64,000 nt of DNA. It comes from Paucidesulfovibrio longus DSM 6739. Its GTDB lineage: Bacteria > Desulfobacterota > Desulfovibrionia > Desulfovibrionales > Desulfovibrionaceae. The translations under genes were made by a program, and so were the position numbers. The notes under the pieces were generated by a model. That model had not been told where the DNA came from, ran no database searches, and saw only the letters and a list, made by a program, of their open reading frames with translations. Below, piece by piece: positions 1,832-31,954 of this stretch. Position 1 is the stretch's first letter. Each line of letters opens with the position of its first letter. The stretch lies in the NCBI RefSeq assembly GCF_000420485.1, contig NZ_ATVA01000014.1, positions 62,001 through 126,000 on the forward strand, in the 5' to 3' direction.

Positions 1832-3049
1832 ATGGACACCGATCTGCTCTTTCGCGGATATCTGGGTAAGCGGGTCCATCTCGGCGTGACCGGAAGCGTG
1901 GCCGCGTACAAGGCGATCGACCTTGTGCGCGGCCTTCTGGACTGCAACGTTTCCGTTTCGGCCACGCTCACGGATGCGGCCGCGAAATTCGTGACTCCGC
2001 TTTCCTTTGCCGCGCTCGGCGCGGACCCTGTCTACGGGGCCATGTTCGCGGACGGGGACGACCCCTATGCCCACCTCGGGCCGGGCAGGGCGGCCGACGT
2101 TCTGGCCGTGGCTCCCTGCACGGCGAACAGCCTGGCCAAGTTCGCCTGCGGTCTGGCAGACGACATGCTCTCCTGCCAGGTGCTCGCCCATGCCGGTCCC
2201 TTGCTTTTGGCCCCGGCCATGAACCCCGCCATGTGGGAAGCCCCGGCCACCAAGGAAAACGTGGCCCGTCTTCGTGACAGGGGCGTAGAGCTGGTTTTTC
2301 CCGGTTCCGGGAAGGTAGCCTGCGGCGATGTTGGAAACGGCCGTCTGGCCCCTGTGGCGGCGATTTTAGGCCATGTGTGCCGTCTGCTCTCTCCGCAGGA
2401 TCTTTCCGGTGTTCGTGTGCTGCTCACTCTCGGCCCCACCCGCGAGAAATTCGACGCGGTGCGCTTCTGGTCCAACCCCTCCACCGGACGCATGGGAGCC
2501 TGCCTTGCCACGGCGGCCTGGCTGCGCGGCGCCCAGGTGCACGTGGTTGCCGGTCCATGCTCGTTGCAGCTTCCGGACGGGGTCGCGCGCACGGACGTGA
2601 CTTCCGCCAGGGAGATGCACGCTGCGGTTTCCGATCTTTGGCCCGATATGGACATTGCCTGCTGCACGGCTGCGGTGGCGGATTTCCGGCCTCGTCCCTT
2701 CGGCGAGACCAAGATGAAGAAGGACGTCATCGGCGAGGGGGGATTGACGGTCGCGTTCGATTCCAACCCCGATATTCTTGCCGGTCTGGGCGCGTCCAAG
2801 CGCCGTGATCAACGCCTGATCGGCTTTGCCGCGGAAACGGACGACTTGCGCGCCAATGCCGCGGCCAAGCTGGAGCGCAAGAATCTTGATCTTATCGTGG
2901 CGAATCCCGTGAACGCGCATGGTTCCGGATTCGGCAGCAGGACCAACAGCGTGCTCGTCCTTGATCGCACCGGACGCAGGGAAGAGTGGCCCTCTTTGGA
3001 TAAATCGGAAGTCGCGTGGCGGATATGGGATCACCTGGCCGAAATCTGA
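1832..3049 (+). CDS. coaBC: Bifunctional phosphopantothenoylcysteine decarboxylase / phosphopantothenate-cysteine ligase
   Basis: 405 residues from ATG 1832, the normal length for CoaBC (Dfp). The N-terminal flavoprotein half carries GVTGSVAAYKA, the His of AHLGPGRAADVLAVAP and the PAMNPAMW motif of the decarboxylase. The C-terminal CoaB half carries GPTREKFDAVRFWSN, AAVADFRP and the lysine-rich KMKKD segment of the ligase. The enzyme joins cysteine to 4'-phosphopantothenate with CTP and decarboxylates the product to 4'-phosphopantetheine in coenzyme A synthesis. The 3' end overlaps the next gene by 34 nt, which suggests coupled translation. Confidence 0.97.
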   Translation: MDTDLLFRGYLGKRVHLGVTGSVAAYKAIDLVRGLLDCNVSVSATLTDAAAKFVTPLSFAALGADPVYGAMFADGDDPYAHLGPGRAADVLAVAPCTANSLAKFACGLADDMLSCQVLAHAGPLLLAPAMNPAMWEAPATKENVARLRDRGVELVFPGSGKVACGDVGNGRLAPVAAILGHVCRLLSPQDLSGVRVLLTLGPTREKFDAVRFWSNPSTGRMGACLATAAWLRGAQVHVVAGPCSLQLPDGVARTDVTSAREMHAAVSDLWPDMDIACCTAAVADFRPRPFGETKMKKDVIGEGGLTVAFDSNPDILAGLGASKRRDQRLIGFAAETDDLRANAAAKLERKNLDLIVANPVNAHGSGFGSRTNSVLVLDRTGRREEWPSLDKSEVAWRIWDHLAEI

Positions 3050-3810
3050 ACATACCGGAACAGCTGCGCGCCTGGCATGAAGCCGGGCTGCACTATGTTC
3101 TGAAAAGCCCTGCGGGCGATGCGGGACAGGCCGGACCAACAGCACCTGCGGATGCTTCCGCGCCCGGTTCCGACTCGGCCGCCGGATCCCCGGCGGCGAC
3201 GACCGCACACGCGGCGGAATCTTCTCGCATCCCAGCCGCCCCGCAAGAGTCCCCGACCCCAAGCATATCCCGCCCCGCAGCCGATGCAGGCGGGGGCATG
3301 GTTCCGCAGGGCGCTGCTGCTGCGGATACCTCTCCGGATTCCGGTCCGGCGCAGTCCGACGATTATACGAACTGGCCTGAACCATGGCGATCCCTCTGGC
3401 TGAAGACGCCGCACGACCCCAAGATCGTCTGGACTTACTACGATCTCGGCGCGCACATGGGCGGACGTCCTGATCCGGAAATCGGCAAGCTTTTGCAGTC
3501 CCTGATCTACTATTTCCGGTGGCCCAAGGGGACCATCGCCTTTTGGCCCATGAGCGAGCTTGCAGGAGAGGACTGCGTACCGAACGTGGACATGTTCTGG
3601 CGCGGCGTGGACAGGCTCGGAACCCGGCATGTCGCCATCTTCGGGCCGGACGTGCTGCCGCTGGTGGCGCCGGACGCGCCCGCGCATGCAACCGGAGTCC
3701 GGGTCGGGGAGGTCACGCTCTATACGCTTCCCACCCTGGCGGAGCTTCTGCCCATGCTGCCCCACGAGCGCCTGATCGCCTTGCAGATCGTCAAGCAGCT
3801 CTCGTTCTAA
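3016..3810 (+). CDS. uncharacterised protein overlapping coaBC
   Basis: 264 residues from GTG 3016, with an alternative in-frame ATG at 3025; both lie inside the end of coaBC. Residues about 35-120 are a low-complexity Ala/Pro/Ser/Gly linker. The conserved-looking part is the C-terminal 145 residues, beginning near NWPEPWRSLWLKTPHDPKIV and rich in aromatic residues, with WTYYDLG and FWPMSEL. No catalytic motif or membrane segment is visible. The overlap implies translation together with CoaBC, but gives no functional clue. I do not recognise the family. Confidence 0.7.
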   Translation: MADMGSPGRNLNIPEQLRAWHEAGLHYVLKSPAGDAGQAGPTAPADASAPGSDSAAGSPAATTAHAAESSRIPAAPQESPTPSISRPAADAGGGMVPQGAAAADTSPDSGPAQSDDYTNWPEPWRSLWLKTPHDPKIVWTYYDLGAHMGGRPDPEIGKLLQSLIYYFRWPKGTIAFWPMSELAGEDCVPNVDMFWRGVDRLGTRHVAIFGPDVLPLVAPDAPAHATGVRVGEVTLYTLPTLAELLPMLPHERLIALQIVKQLSF

Positions 3811-25951: not shown

Positions 25952-27379
25952 ATGGTGCGAAGCTCGTTTGAGAACATCTGCATATTCCATATCCTGGACG
26001 GCCTGCGCGACGGGTTGTCCCACTTCTCGGACGGAGCCAGGGCCGCGCTGATCTACGCCACGGATCCCGCAGGGCCGCTGCGCGTCTACGACCCCCAGGA
26101 TCTTCTGCGGGGCCACGAACCCAAGCTGCTGGATTTTTATCTGGAATCGGAAAACTGGCGCGGCCCGCTGCCCGAAGGGCCGGAAGTGGACTTCCTGCGC
26201 CCGGAGCATCTCAAGCAGCTCCAGATGGCGGGACTGCTGGCCTTTGGGGGCCGCTCGCGCTCCGTGCCCTATCAGGTCTGGTTCACGGAGGAGCATCCGA
26301 CCATGTGCAGCACCGGGCCGACCCTGCACTGGATGGAATACGCGACCCGGCTGTTTTCCCAGAACTACGAGCTGCAGAACGTCCTCAACATCGACACGTC
26401 CGGGTATGTCCTGCAGCAATGCGCGTCCCACGCCATTCGGGACTACATCGTGGACGAGCGCGCGAACATGGGCAAATGGGACACCCAGCTTCGGGTCTAT
26501 CCCATCCTGGACGCGGTCATCGGCGTGTCCAAGACCATGGAGGAGGGTTGCTGGCCGCGCGGCGAGCTGGTCTTTGTCGAGCCGAACGAGCAGTACCAGC
26601 TCAACTACCTCGCGCTGTTCCCGGACAACGACCGGCCGGAAATCCACAACTTCAAGCGCGTCCGCAAGCTTCTGCAAAGCGTGGAAGGCTCGGAGCGCAA
26701 GCTCGTTTCCGACGGCAGGAACATCGTGGGCATTGCCGTGGGGACGGTCCCGGATTCCTGCATCGTGGCGCGCTATCACGGTTCCCACGGTTTCCTGCTG
26801 CTCAACGGCCTGCTGGTGTGCAGCTTTTCCGAGGGCAATTTCAGTTCGTCGAACCGCAAGGCGAACCTTGTGGAGCTGGAGGAACTCTTCGTCGATTCCC
26901 GGCTCAATCTTTCGGAACAGCATTCGCTCAAGAACATCGTCACGGCCCTGGTGGACAGCTCCACGGAAAAGCGCCACGGCTGCACCCTGGTGCTCGACTT
27001 CGCGCCTGCGCCGGAGCGCATGTCCGGGCAATATCTGGTCCACCCCCTGGACCTGCGCCTGGGGCGGTTCCTGGAACTGGCCAAGGCCCTGTCCAAGATC
27101 GACGGGGCGCTGCACATCGGCGCGGACCTCAAGCTGCACGGCTTCGGCTGCCTGCTCGACGGGCACAGCGTTCCCGGAGAAAACCTGGCCAGGGGCGCGC
27201 GCTACAATTCGGCCCTGCGCTACACCGCCCAGCACGACTCGGCCATCGTGGTGGTCGTGTCCTCGGACCGTCCGGTGTCCATCATCCAGGGCGGCATCGA
27301 GCTGACTGCCGCCTGCGCGCTGAAGACCCTGCGCGGATGCCCAACGCCGCCCATCCTGAAAGACTGGCTCAATGGCTGA
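25952..27379 (+). CDS. Protein with C-terminal diadenylate-cyclase-like (DisA_N/DAC) domain
   Basis: 475 residues from ATG 25952. The N-terminal 330 residues match nothing I recognise; they are mixed alpha/beta with no membrane segment. Residues about 375-445 align by eye with the DAC domain of DisA: ALSKIDGALHIGADLKLHG, a spacer, ARGARYNSALRYTAQHDSA, then IVVVVSSDRPVSIIQGG. DGA lies at 384-386 and RYN at 417-419. Asp384 and Arg417 are 33 residues apart, the same spacing as Asp75 and Arg108 of DisA. The RHR nucleotide motif has become RYN, so c-di-AMP synthesis is doubtful and nucleotide sensing or a different product is possible. It lies between a TetR gene and a chemoreceptor 75 nt downstream. 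Confidence 0.7.
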   Translation: MVRSSFENICIFHILDGLRDGLSHFSDGARAALIYATDPAGPLRVYDPQDLLRGHEPKLLDFYLESENWRGPLPEGPEVDFLRPEHLKQLQMAGLLAFGGRSRSVPYQVWFTEEHPTMCSTGPTLHWMEYATRLFSQNYELQNVLNIDTSGYVLQQCASHAIRDYIVDERANMGKWDTQLRVYPILDAVIGVSKTMEEGCWPRGELVFVEPNEQYQLNYLALFPDNDRPEIHNFKRVRKLLQSVEGSERKLVSDGRNIVGIAVGTVPDSCIVARYHGSHGFLLLNGLLVCSFSEGNFSSSNRKANLVELEELFVDSRLNLSEQHSLKNIVTALVDSSTEKRHGCTLVLDFAPAPERMSGQYLVHPLDLRLGRFLELAKALSKIDGALHIGADLKLHGFGCLLDGHSVPGENLARGARYNSALRYTAQHDSAIVVVVSSDRPVSIIQGGIELTAACALKTLRGCPTPPILKDWLNG

Positions 27380-27454: not shown

Positions 27455-29509
27455 ATGGCTATTCGCCTTGTGCCGCGTTCCATCCGTGGCAAGCTGATTT
27501 CCACCCTGGGCGTGCTGATGGGGCTCATTCTGCTTCTGGGCGGTTTGAGCTGGATGCAGCTGAGTCTCGGCGCGAACCGCGCCGGTGAGCTCTTGCGCGT
27601 CGAAGCCGGCCTGGCCGACTCCCTGAGCCGCGCAAGGGGCGGGCTTCAGCGCTTGCGCCGATTCGAGAAGGAAAGCCTGCTCTACGTGGACGACGGCGTT
27701 TCGCGCAGGATTGCGATGCAGCGGTTCGAGGACGAATACCAGACCATGGTCGGAGAGCTGACCCGCCTGGGCGAACTGGCCGAGGAGAGCACCCTGGTGC
27801 GCCGGGAGGAACTCAGCGCGGTCAAGAGCATGCGCCCGCTATTGGAAAAATACGTCAAGGCTTTCAGAGAGGTCATGGCCGGCATCGAAAGCGACCCGTC
27901 CGTCAATCCGCAGCGCGCCCGCAAGTTGATGGAGCCGATGGAACCTTCGGTGGCCGAGTTCGAAACGACCTTCGAGAAGGCGCGCGTGGGCAACGAGATT
28001 CTGGAGCAGAGCCTGGCGGAACTGCGGTCCGACGCGCTGCGCACGGAAATGCTGCTCGCCGCCATTCTGGGCGTGTCCCTGCTGGCCTCGCTGGTGGCCG
28101 GGCTGTCCCTGCTGCGTTCCGTTTCCCATCCCATCAGGGTTCTTTCGGAATACGCCGAGAAGGTTGCCGGGGGCGACTGGAACGCCACGGCGGAAGGGCT
28201 GGACAAGGGGGAGATGGGCCGTCTGCGCGGGGTCATCGAAGGCATGGTCGAGGAGTTGAAGCGGCGCTTCGGCTTCGTTTCCGGCGTGCTCAAGGGGCTG
28301 CCGCAGCCATGCTTCGTGGTGGACCGGGAAGAGCGGGTGACCTTCATCGGCGAGACCTACATGAAGCTCTACGAGGTCGAAGGCGAACCGGAAGAGCATT
28401 ACGGCAAGAAGCTCAACGAGTTCTTCTACGGCGACAAGGAAAAGGACACCCTCACGGGCAGGTGCATGCGCGAGAACGTGGCTATCCGCGACGTGGAATT
28501 GACGCGCGTCCTGCCCTCCGGGAAAACCGTGCTCGTGACCATGGACGTGGTTCCGCTGCACGACCTTGACGGCAATCTCATCGGAGCCTTTGCGGTGCTG
28601 GTCGATCTGACCCAGATCAAGCAGACCCTCCAGGCCGTGGAGGAGAAGAACGCCAAGATCGAACGGGCCTCCGCCGAGGTGGACGCCATTTCCGACCAGG
28701 TGGTCTCGGCCACGAGCGAGCTTTCCGCGCAGGTGGAGCAGGCCAGCCGGGGAGCCGTGGCCCAGAAGGAGCGCGCGGACACCACGGCCACGGCCGTGGA
28801 CCAGATGAGCGCCAGCGTGGTCGAAGTGGCGCGCAACGCCACCAGCGCGTCGGAGCTGGCCGAGCGTTCCCGCGCAAAGGCCCAGGAAGGCGCCGAGGTC
28901 GTGACCAAGGTCGTGAACAATATCCAGGAAGCCACGAAGCTTTCGGCGAACCTGCGCAGGAACATGGACGAATTGGGATCCAAGGCCGAAGGCATCAGCA
29001 AGATCATGAACGTCATCAACGACATCGCGGACCAGACCAACCTCCTGGCCCTGAACGCGGCCATCGAGGCGGCGCGGGCGGGCGAGGCGGGCCGGGGCTT
29101 TGCCGTGGTCGCGGACGAGGTGCGCAAGCTGGCGGAAAAAACCGTCATCGCCACCAAGGAGGTCGGCGGGTTCATCGCCGCCATCCAGAACAGCGCCGCC
29201 CTGAGCATCGAGGGCACCCAGAGCGCAGCGGCATCCATCGAGGAAGGAGCGCGGCTGGCCGAGGCGTCGGGAGCGGCCCTGCGCGAAATCGTCGAATTGG
29301 TGGACGACACCGCCGATCAGGTCCGAAACATCGCCACGGCTTCCGAGGAACAGGCCGCAGCCAGCGAGGAGGTGGGCCGCGCCACCACGGAAATCAACGC
29401 CATTGCGGGGGAAACTTCGGACGTGATGCGGCAGGCCGCCAGGGCCGTGGACGAGATCGCACGGGTGGCCCAGCACCTCAGCCGCATGATCGACGAAATG
29501 CGCTCCTGA
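27455..29509 (+). CDS. Methyl-accepting chemotaxis protein with HAMP and PAS domains
   Basis: 684 residues from ATG 27455, with AGAGGAG upstream. TM1 lies at about 13-33, a periplasmic helical domain at 35-200 and TM2 at about 203-226. HAMP follows to about 275, then a PAS domain (about 280-395; [20 protein letters not shown]) and the methyl-accepting signalling domain. The kinase-contact hairpin is near 515-560 ([20 protein letters not shown]). PAS between HAMP and signalling domain suggests cytoplasmic as well as periplasmic input. A 143-nt part of the hairpin coding region is repeated in inverted orientation in the 30122-31954 receptor. Confidence 0.95.
29018..29160 (+). repeat. Chemoreceptor hairpin repeat, copy 1
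   Basis: This 143-nt segment is identical at 141 positions to the reverse complement of 30477-30619; the two differences are silent third-position changes. It encodes the kinase-contact hairpin. Part of the identity is protein constraint, but near-complete third-position identity points to recent conversion or duplication. Confidence 0.85.
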
Positions 29510-30121: not shown

Positions 30122-31954
30122 TCAGCCTTCGGTGTTCATCCGTTCGATGAGGCTCAGGAGCTGCTGGGAAAGCCTGGCCAGTTCGTTGGTGGCCTTGGCC
30201 GCCTCGTCCATGCCCTGGGAGGTCTCTCCGGCGATGCGCCGGACATCGTCCACCGCGCGGTTGATCTCTTCGCTGGTGGCGGATTGCTCTTCGGCCGCGG
30301 TGGCGATGCTGCGCACCTGATCTGAGGTTTCCTCGGCGAGGCGGACGATTTCCCGCAGGGCCTGACCGGATTGCTCGGCCAGGTCCGCGGCGCGGTTGGC
30401 CGTGACCGTGGACTGCTCCACGCTGGCGATGTTCACGCGGGCGCTTTCCTGCATGCTGCCGATGGCCTGGCCCACTTCCTTGGTGGCGATGACGGTTTTT
30501 TCCGCCAGCTTGCGCACCTCGTCCGCGACCACGGCGAAGCCTCGGCCCGCCTCGCCCGCCCGCGCCGCCTCGATGGCCGCGTTCAGGGCCAGGAGGTTGG
30601 TCTGGTCCGCGATGTCGTTGATCACGCCCATGATCTTGCTGATGCCGTTGGCGCGCGCGCCCAGGTCGAGCATGTCCTGCTTGAGCCGGTTCGAGCTTTC
30701 CGCCACCTCCAGGATGGAGGAAACCGCGTTGTCCACGATCTTGTAGCCGGCGTTGGCCTGGGAGCGGGTGTTTTCTGCGGCTTCGGCGGTGATGGCCGAG
30801 TTGCGGGCCACCTCCAGCACCGTGGCGGTCATCTCCTCCATGGAGATGGCGGTCTCGGCGGTGCGCTGGTCCTGCACGCTTGCGCCGCCGCTGACCTGCA
30901 CGATCTGCGCGGAGAGTTCCTCGGACGCCGCGGAAACCTGGTGGGCGATTTCTTCGGAGCGGGAAGCGATGTCCCGCATGGTCCGCAGCAGGTCGGAAAC
31001 CTTTTCCTCCTGGCGGCGGGATTCGGCAAGGGCCGTTTCGGCGCGCTCGGCCTGGGCCTCGGCCTCGCGGCTGGTCTGTTCCGATTCGAGCATCTTCTGC
31101 CGCAGGCGGGCGACCATGTCGGCGATGGATTCCTTCATGCGCAGCAATTCCGCGTTGAACGTGCCTTCCGGAATGGCTTCCAGGTCGCCGTCCGCGACCT
31201 GCCGGGCATACCGTTCGATGCTGCGCATGGGCCGGACGATCTTGCCCTGGGTGACGAACCAGGCAAAGGCCGTGACCGCCAGAAGCACAGCGAGGGTGAC
31301 GCCGCCGATGGTCAGCTGCGATCGAAACGCTTCGGCCCGGGCGGATTGCAGCGAAGAGATGATTTCGAACGCGCCGTGCACCTCGCCCACCTTCCAGTCT
31401 TCCTTGATTCCGCCGGTGACGTCGCGCTCGCCCCTGGGCGCGCCGTGGCAGTAGAGGCAATCCTCGGTGAGCTTGATGGGTCGGAAGTAGCGCACATGGT
31501 CGGACTCGGTGACAACGTATTCGCTCAGGTTCTTTGCCTTGATTTGCTCAAGGGCGCGGCGTTCCACGGCGTCAGGCTCGTTGGCCGGATTGCGGGGGCC
31601 GACCTTGGGCGTGCGCACCTGGAACTCGCCCTTTTCCGCGCTGGCCTGGGCCATGCGCATGGCCACCACGATGGGCACGGCGTCCATGACCTGGTCCGGA
31701 GGAAGTTCGGAAAACGGACGGATCACGCCGCGCTGGATCTTGGCGGCGAACTCGTTGCGGATGGACTCGGCCATGCCGACCACGGTTCGGCTGCGTGCGA
31801 GCACGGTTTCCATGGCGGCGCTTTCGCTTTCGCGCATGTTCATGGCCGCCAGCACCAGAGCGATGACCAGGGGGCCGCAGAGGGCAATGAAAAGAACCTT
31901 CCATTTGATCCCGGAAAGATTCAGCGCCCCGAAAGGGGAAAAGATAGTCGGCAT
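30122..31954 (-). CDS. Heme c-binding methyl-accepting chemotaxis protein (DUF3365/Tll0287-like sensor)
   Basis: 610 residues on the minus strand from ATG 31954-31952. TM1 at about 17-38 is followed by a periplasmic domain to about residue 218. That domain resembles DUF3365/Tll0287, with [18 protein letters not shown]166-L-Y-C169-H170 is a CxxCH site for covalent heme c. TM2 (about 220-240), HAMP and a signalling domain with the usual hairpin follow. Redox or gas sensing through periplasmic heme is inferred; Desulfovibrio DcrA is a known precedent for a c-heme chemoreceptor. It needs the cytochrome c maturation system. The gene is divergent from the hybrid kinase. Confidence 0.92.
30477..30619 (-). 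repeat. Chemoreceptor hairpin repeat, copy 2
   Basis: Inverted partner of 29018-29160, 141 of 143 nt identical, inside the heme chemoreceptor gene. The two copies flank about 1.3 kb that holds the receptors' 3' ends and two small open frames. Confidence 0.85.

Follow-up and report, generated by a model that had tools for sequence, protein, structure and literature searches.

A conserved R[FY]N version of the RHR motif in a DACND-DACNH-DAC protein of Paucidesulfovibrio longus, a putative sensor-gated diadenylate cyclase

Introduction

The active site of the diadenylate cyclase (DAC) domain of Bacillus subtilis CdaA is marked by the motifs DGA and RHR, and two DAC domains have to meet head to head for product formation, according to the passages of PMC8573169 that deal with this enzyme. 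For DacA of Mycobacterium tuberculosis, passages of PMC3328451 report that the exchange of RHR for AAA abolishes both ATP binding and the synthesis of cyclic di-AMP (c-di-AMP), and that activity is kept after the exchange G73A in the DGA motif. A further DAC belongs to the anti-phage system DS-2, presented with DefensePredictor, which is linked to the cyclic oligonucleotide-based anti-phage signalling system (CBASS), consists of this DAC, a phospholipase and a cGAS-like enzyme and loses its phage defence on mutation of two DAC residues predicted to be catalytic (passages of PMC13092281). Here, we analysed a gene of Paucidesulfovibrio longus DSM 6739, located in a stretch of 64,000 nucleotides (hereafter the window; contig NZ_ATVA01000014.1, positions 62,001 to 126,000), whose product, the window protein, combines the N-terminal domains DACND and DACNH with a C-terminal DAC domain that carries RYN at the place of RHR. 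Pfam titles both N-terminal domains 'Probable sensor domain', and the make-up of sensor and DAC is thus a catalogued one. An article by Galperin from 2023, 'All DACs in a row', is said to describe the DACN domains.

The window protein shares the DAC fold, the DGA motif and an Asp-Arg spacing of 32-33 residues with CdaA and DacA. The CdaA encoded in the same genome is a 249-residue open reading frame (ORF) whose N-terminus reads as membrane-spanning and which carries GTRHRAA and SEE; the window protein differs in its two N-terminal domains and in having RGARYNS and SSD. DisA likewise shares the DAC fold but has RHR where this motif is replaced in the window protein; the C-terminal domains of DisA were not detected by Pfam in the window protein, where the DAC is itself C-terminal. 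The DACNV-DAC proteins from the same bacterial family also join a 'probable sensor' domain to a weakly scoring DAC, but retain RHR in two of three cases and have RHQ in the third. Because of RYN at residues 417-419, we did not file the window protein as a canonical DAC, although it has the DAC fold and DGA.

Results

Domain make-up and predicted fold

Scanning the 475-residue protein with Pfam yielded DACND, DACNH and DAC in this order, all above the gathering scores (curated cut-offs of 27 bits each for PF21749, PF21750 and PF02457), and no other output domain (Table 1). The match to PF02457 reached 44.1 bits with an E-value of 1.8e-11, which we judged to be no chance match. A first-pass annotation, made from the letters of the window without database searches, had proposed a DAC-like C-terminal domain with DGA at residues 384-386, RYN at 417-419 and an Asp-Arg spacing of 33; the positions and the spacing were all confirmed. 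The roughly 330 residues in front of this domain, which had appeared there as unknown, turned out to hold the two other Pfam domains, and its remark that such DAC proteins were known from comparative genomics agrees with the Pfam titles. By its sequence, the window protein belongs to the already named Pfam DACND-DACNH-DAC family, whose full-length relatives among sulfate reducers and related bacteria are about 48-82% identical to it, and we found nothing that sets it apart from this family.

The fold of the whole protein was modelled with AlphaFold2 from an alignment of 62 sequences, comprising the window protein and 61 relatives. Out of 80 loci, 77 passed the coverage filter and 64 were left after filtering at 85% identity, from which L093, L101 and L117 were omitted. 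The resulting model had a mean predicted local distance difference test score (pLDDT) of 87.2 and a predicted template modelling score (pTM) of 0.74. Its top structural match was CdaA (8c4n_B) with a Z-score of 16.9 over 129 residues and a root mean square deviation (rmsd) of 2.3 Å, DisA (3c1y) was matched with a Z-score of 13.8, and all strong matches were DAC structures, the top non-DAC row having a Z-score of 7.4. The comparison of a predicted structure with DisA and CdaA, suggested in the first-pass annotation as a check, therefore returned a DAC fold. It extends over about 140 residues (313-453) in the model, so that the earlier assignment to DAC stands while its extent of 70 residues was too short. 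Neither phmmer nor a profile search with the window protein returned a DAC chain among the PDB sequences. Comparing profiles with 31 CdaAs, we obtained a P-value of 8.2e-6 (for a single comparison) at a probability of 83.6%. As the PDB sequence searches gave no DAC chain, the evidence connecting the window protein with the solved DACs comes from Pfam, the models and the CdaA profile comparison.

Conservation of the alternative active-site motif

Conservation of the active-site residues was counted in several sets of proteins, the least biased of which were two sets chosen by an N-terminal domain. The first consisted of the window protein and the 29 best-scoring DACND loci out of 57 positive genomes. 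In these 30 proteins, chosen by DACND score, the residues D384, G385, A386, R414, G415, A416, R417, N419, S420, R423, S437 and D439 were identical throughout (30/30), and position 418 was occupied by F in 21 and by Y in 9 cases. The second, a phylum-wide sample chosen by DACNH, contained RGARYNS in 11 and RGARFNS in 5 proteins, accounting for 16/16. The sets chosen by DACND or DACNH score are free of pattern bias and overlap in genomes. A larger set comprised the window protein and 79 of 80 loci found by two peptide patterns, one of them being [AS]RGAR[FY]NSA. The motif was present in 80/80 of its members, as were D384 and G385, A386 was kept in 79/80, and position 418 was F in 52 and Y in 28 proteins; because the search patterns include the motif itself, the count of 80/80 is partly circular, and the three viral loci treated below share this bias. 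Among the 80 loci, L064 has a broken or truncated frame without the motif region, and L094/L095 as well as L065/L066 encode identical proteins.

From outside the phylum or from viruses, we compared 11 intact DACNH-DAC-type genes, originating from E. coli, Citrobacter, Gluconobacter, Priestia (three genes), Dyadobacter, Phycisphaera and three viral contigs. RG[AS]R[FY]NS was present in 10/11, the exception being Phycisphaera with RGARLNA, and the Asn as well as SxD were kept in 11/11. Pfam recognised DACNH in all 10 outside genes that were scanned, L156 not being among them. The Phycisphaera protein with RGARLNA is a plasmid-encoded DACNG-DACNH protein (L194:2989-4815) whose C-terminal part has no Pfam DAC match at an E-value of 0.01. 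A Rhizobium plasmid (L196, about 3001-3335) contains only a disrupted fragment of a DAC of the DS-2 type with neither an annotated gene nor the motif, which was excluded from the counts. At the DNA level, a degenerate pattern for RGAR[FY]NSA matched in 9/247 genomes, eight of the matches lying at DACNH-DAC genes and the ninth (L177) where no DAC gene is present; this pattern misses AGR arginine codons, including those of the window gene, and its backward control also matched some genomes.

As a control, we used 31 CdaA loci, consisting of the 30 top PF02457 scores of the order sample and the window genome's own CdaA, which lean towards the consensus because they were picked by top score. GTRHRAA was found in 31/31 and S-E-E in 27/31 of these loci, the remaining four being unmatched by the search expression, and the Asp-Arg spacing was 32 in 30 loci and 33 in one. 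The DACNV-DAC proteins used as a second control (G036, G078 and G104; L191-L193) showed GTRHRSA in G078 and G104, which belong to one genus, and GMRHQSA in G036. Because R[FY]N is kept in the domain-chosen sets and the canonical motif in the controls, the altered motif appears to be a property of the DACNH-DAC group under strong selection. Decay of the active site was rejected on the grounds that the motif is kept in 30/30 and 16/16 proteins. Judged from these alignments, R[FY]N is an alternative version of RHR that is shared by the DACNH-DAC group across several phyla, and the window protein, having RGARYNS, belongs to this group as we delimit it by RG[AS]R[FY]NS. The first Arg of RHR is retained in R[FY]N, and the invariant R414 and R423 nearby may be candidates for substituting the lost one.

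Relationship to the anti-phage system DS-2

An E. coli genome carries a DS-2 operon annotated with anti-phage names, whose DAC reached 818.8 bits against the cut-off of 630 of the DS2_3 model. This protein has DACNG and DACNH in front and contains DGT, RGSRYNSGVR and VVSDD, and the Pfam DAC model does not match it at an E-value of 0.01. The relatives from Citrobacter and Gluconobacter also pass the DS2_3 model with 803.8 and 712.2 bits, respectively. The model (DS2_3_antiphage, NF053872) aligns to residues 187-445 of the window protein with 78.6 bits, and membership of the window protein in the DS-2_3 equivalog was therefore rejected. DS-2 and the window protein share the DACNH-DAC core together with the RG[AS]R[FY]NS and SxD signature, and differ in their neighbours: the DS-2 DAC is accompanied by genes for a phospholipase and a nucleotidyltransferase, whereas no match to SMODS (PF18144), the single model for cGAS/DncV-like nucleotidyltransferases (CD-NTases) tried, was obtained in the window genome. 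PADLOC did not match the window protein at E-values up to 1. An operon like that of the Citrobacter query was present in 18/5,426 E. coli genomes. By analogy, DS-2 represents the best evidence for an R[FY]N DAC doing something catalytic.

Some of the relatives have surroundings of their own. In E. coli strain 361 (L153:2999-9676), the DS-2 operon is directly followed by a second operon of the CBASS type with a phospholipase, DncV and E2/UBC, resulting in a tandem of two CBASS systems. The viral contigs L154 (1-7449) and L155 (5179-12940) contain DACNH-DAC genes, one of them beside an integrase-like ORF and the other fused to TPR repeats, and ORFs near these genes look like TIR-type domains by reading of the sequence.

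The N-terminal domains

Residues 1-302, a part without the DAC, were modelled separately from an alignment of the window protein and 57 relatives, and this model had a pLDDT of 90.1 and a pTM of 0.85. Comparing it with known structures by VIA, we obtained 32 of 50 rows covering the DACNH region, and all 32 were DAC structures with Z-scores of 6.5-8.4. The top match was DacM (Z-score 8.4, rmsd 3.2 Å, 112 residues), and CdaA reached 8.0 and DisA 7.6-7.8. Most of these rows span residues 179-299 or thereabouts; those of DisA start from 160-162, and that of 2fb5 from 120 with an rmsd of 7.6 Å. The other 18 of the 50 rows cover residues 1-146 and are weak matches to GAF, longin/roadblock, IclR, LuxR-type and other folds with Z-scores of about 6.5-7.5, too low to rule out a merely widespread structural arrangement. 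Foldseek returned no match to residues 1-302 at an E-value of 0.001 or better, and DACs were absent from its top 50. Profile comparisons of DACNH or DACND with DAC by hhalign gave no significant similarity, nor did that of DACNH with DACNV, where an EEG-type motif shared by eye has weak profile support. In the best local alignment of DACNH and CdaA, which is non-significant, the first DAC strand is aligned to RGELVFVEP, and LHDGA is matched by LVSDG of DACNH, in agreement with the predicted fold. The DG of DACNH is not kept in E. coli, Citrobacter and Gluconobacter, and a counterpart of the RHR helix is absent from DACNH according to the order of secondary structure elements in the two models compared. 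The pair R238-K239 of DACNH was identical in 70/70 aligned sequences, and H115, C119 and H160 of DACND were present in 62/62.

Based on these models, DACNH is probably a pseudo-DAC, resembling the DAC fold except for the absent RHR helix, and we propose at lower confidence that DACND is a GAF-like ligand sensor, in which the invariant H115, C119 and H160 may be part of a site for a ligand or a metal. If any DAC-fold part of the window protein acts as a sensor, DACNH is more likely to do so.

Distribution and coexistence with CdaA

We found two DACs in the 3.7 Mb genome of P. longus, namely the window protein and a canonical CdaA on contig C13 with a PF02457 score of 143.4 bits versus 44.1 for the DAC of the window protein. 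Another protein of this genome, encoded on C11 (L150:1441-2412), is a 323-residue DHH-DHHA1 protein which is NrnA/DhhP-like by reading of the translation and thereby a candidate for hydrolysing a cyclic dinucleotide or the linear form made from it. In genomes sampled from the order, DACND was detected in 57/150, belonging to 15/36 genera, and 56 of the 57 positive genomes contained one copy each, the exception being an assembly of 63% completeness with two. DACNH was present in 16/247 genomes of the phylum sample. Scanning a collection of species genomes, we recovered 457 stretches encoding relatives of the window protein, the best 80 of which include entries titled Desulfovibrio, Desulfobacterales, Desulfacinum and Syntrophobacteraceae as well as unplaced metagenome-assembled genomes of Deltaproteobacteria or Proteobacteria. 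In the genus g31 (G013, G023 and G038; L174-L176), the R[FY]N-type DAC was the sole DAC match at E-values up to 1 in 3/3 genomes; DACND was seen in two of the three, and the R[FY]N-DAC sequence of G038 is only a 182-residue frame. Going by these matches, this genus may possess no DAC other than the R[FY]N-type one.

Gene neighbourhood

Upstream of the DAC gene, Pfam identified a MacB/FtsX-type permease and a TetR regulator, and downstream a PAS-HAMP chemoreceptor, followed by a Tll0287-type chemoreceptor in convergent orientation. The gene for the PAS/HAMP receptor lies on the same strand as the DAC gene after a gap of 75 bp. In a genome of the same genus (G147, L173), whose DAC is 81% identical, the permease, the TetR regulator, the DAC, the Tll0287 receptor and the PAS-type protein beyond it all recur, whereas the PAS-HAMP receptor does not, and the convergent Tll0287 receptor follows the DAC directly. 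L038, with a DAC 82% identical and a contig ending inside the DAC gene, shows this arrangement downstream as well. When compared to seven loci at an E-value of 1e-20, the PAS/HAMP receptor matched five through the signalling half of methyl-accepting chemotaxis proteins only and two not at all. Its signalling half is about 57% identical to the Tll0287 receptor of the relative, and the two receptors of the window stand tail to tail. From this comparison, the PAS/HAMP receptor looks like a lineage-specific arrival, or else a loss in the relatives. Because it is absent in the two closest relatives, the link to the chemoreceptor fails; the placement beside it, mentioned in the first-pass annotation, is not kept in these relatives.

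Neighbour families were compared in 81 neighbourhoods. The largest one occurred in 15/81, so that no pathway or partner gene shows, and a fixed operon or a defence island, considered as candidates, remained unsupported. At least 3 kb were available on both sides in only 49/80 loci, and gene calling relied on a simple script, so that a loose association could be missed.

Table 1. Features of the DAC gene and its surroundings (positions in the window)
Feature	Position	Strand	Basis or remark
DACND-DACNH-DAC gene	25952..27379	+	475-aa ORF, ATG start; three Pfam domains above cut-off
DACND domain, residues 5-172, putative ligand sensor	25964..26467	+	PF21749, 222.8 bits
WFTEHHPDMCSxGPT-type stretch in DACND, residues 110-129	26279..26338	+	H115 and C119 in 62/62 sequences
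DACNH domain, residues 183-285	26498..26806	+	PF21750, 100.3 bits
DAC domain, residues 339-448 by Pfam (predicted fold 313-453)	26966..27295	+	PF02457, 44.1 bits
DGA motif, residues 384-386	27101..27109	+	Conservation in relatives
RGARYNSALR at the place of GTRHRAA, residues 414-423	27191..27220	+	Alignment of relatives
SxD (SSD) at the place of canonical SEE, residues 437-439	27260..27268	+	Alignment with same-genome CdaA
Weak terminator-like hairpin after the DAC stop codon	27382-27394		
PAS/HAMP chemoreceptor next to the DAC gene	27455..29509	+	Pfam; no conserved unit with the DAC gene
Tll0287-type chemoreceptor, convergent to the PAS/HAMP receptor	30122-31954		Pfam

Discussion

The three-domain anatomy, the predicted DAC fold, the conserved alternative motif, the features shared with DS-2, the lack of a fixed neighbour and the coexistence with CdaA were established computationally. 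On balance, we favour the explanation that the window protein is an active cyclase gated by a sensor and probably producing c-di-AMP, rather than a mere nucleotide sensor. It would then act as a soluble three-domain enzyme, with DACND as the putative GAF-like ligand sensor and DACNH as a regulatory domain, which is probably a DAC-fold pseudo-domain. In the C-terminal DAC, the DACNH-DAC group has R[FY]N (within RGAR[FY]NSxxR), kept almost as strictly as RHR in other DACs, and SxD in place of SEE. The DAC domains of two chains would meet head to head and bind ATP and a metal, and the binding of a signal by DACND or DACNH would lead to the synthesis of a cyclic dinucleotide, most simply c-di-AMP. 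In addition to its housekeeping CdaA, the organism may thereby have another source that responds to a signal.

Several points weigh against this explanation. Considering the loss of function of the DacA variant with AAA instead of RHR, the loss of the second Arg could matter, and changes of RHR to RFN or RYN are not among the DacA changes in the passages of PMC3328451. We found no biochemistry on the R[FY]N DACNH-DAC group in the literature searched, and the mutated DS-2 residues are unnamed in the passages of PMC13092281. DS-2 also has DACNG where the window protein has DACND, and only the DACNH-DAC part aligns. In the window genome, a PgpH-type 7TMR-HDED domain gave no match; no neighbour family recurs beyond 15 of the 81 neighbourhoods; and the g31 assemblies are 94% (G013), 85% (G023) and 89% (G038) complete. 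Searching literature texts for the DACN domain names returned only an ABCG2 inhibitor study with one DACNH string, which we judged unrelated. The R[FY]N signature and a DAC-like DACNH were not found in the literature searched either, and we do not claim newness for them, the article by Galperin lying outside the search.

Among the other explanations, a catalytically dead DAC that senses ATP or a cyclic dinucleotide, with DACND and DACNH passing on the signal, appears unlikely. The RHR motif, which DacA needs for ATP binding (passages of PMC3328451), is not intact in the window protein, the DAC scores low with 44.1 bits compared to 143.4 for the CdaA of the same genome, and neither an output domain nor a recurring partner indicates a use for a product. 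However, the identity of D384, R414, R417, N419, S420, R423, S437 and D439 in 30/30 proteins would be unusual for a pseudo-active site, and the DS-2 relative needs its predicted catalytic residues (passages of PMC13092281). The absence of an output domain from the Pfam scan also leaves a sensor with nothing to drive. The first-pass annotation had taken the altered RHR, together with the N-terminal region, as pointing to a nucleotide sensor or a cyclase with a different product; because R[FY]N is family-wide and DS-2, which has it, needs catalytic residues, the change of RHR alone is no sign of a dead sensor.

We also doubt that the window protein is an active cyclase with a product other than c-di-AMP, such as a hybrid or linear dinucleotide, in which R[FY]N and SxD would mark an altered handling of the substrate. 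This would agree with the finding that two motifs have changed together throughout the group, from RHR to R[FY]N and from SEE to SxD, and give a reason for what would otherwise be a redundant source of c-di-AMP beside the canonical CdaA already in the genome; moreover, the DAC of DS-2 works beside a cGAS-like enzyme which presumably makes a cyclic nucleotide of its own (passages of PMC13092281). Yet the role of RHR is tied to binding of ATP or ligand in the passages of PMC3328451 and PMC8573169, so that the base used need not change with it, and the R[FY]N DAC as the sole DAC found in g31 fits a role in c-di-AMP synthesis.

A more specific and still tentative idea, to which we assign a low probability, is that DACNH as a degenerate DAC turns the window protein and the DS-2 DAC into intramolecular tandems of pseudo-DAC and DAC, in which the pseudo-half compensates or gates the R[FY]N site. 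It would either supply the missing contacts, for which R238-K239 would be candidates, or gate the access of the second ATP. DACNV also precedes DACs, and these keep RHR or RHQ; hence, a tandem arrangement would not be sufficient to explain the change of the motif. If the idea were true, the result would be a dinucleotide cyclase that is asymmetric or controlled by a signal and differs from the DACs characterised so far, with a logic like that of two-half cyclases.

It is rather improbable that the window protein is a component of anti-phage defence like DS-2. Its homology to the DS-2 DAC in the DACNH-DAC part, the occurrence of genes for a phospholipase and a nucleotidyltransferase next to the relatives from Citrobacter, Gluconobacter and E. 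coli, and the three relatives on viral contigs would suit such a role, but the window genome has no SMODS match, PADLOC gave no match at E-values up to 1, and the gene is single-copy in 56/57 positive genomes of the order and has no neighbour family beyond 15/81. Finally, a functional pair with the adjacent chemoreceptor in nucleotide-coupled chemotaxis, suggested by the common strand and the 75 bp gap, is contradicted by the synteny in L173 and L038 and by the seven-locus comparison at 1e-20 and is very improbable.

A DAC whose RHR motif looks broken is readily labelled inactive. In the present case, the change is strongly conserved and forms the signature of a group that extends over several phyla. 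DACNH, catalogued as a 'probable sensor' domain, may itself have arisen from the catalytic fold by degeneration. The question whether R[FY]N DACs make c-di-AMP or another product has become testable, and the window protein offers a usually single-copy model of these DACs outside a defence setting.

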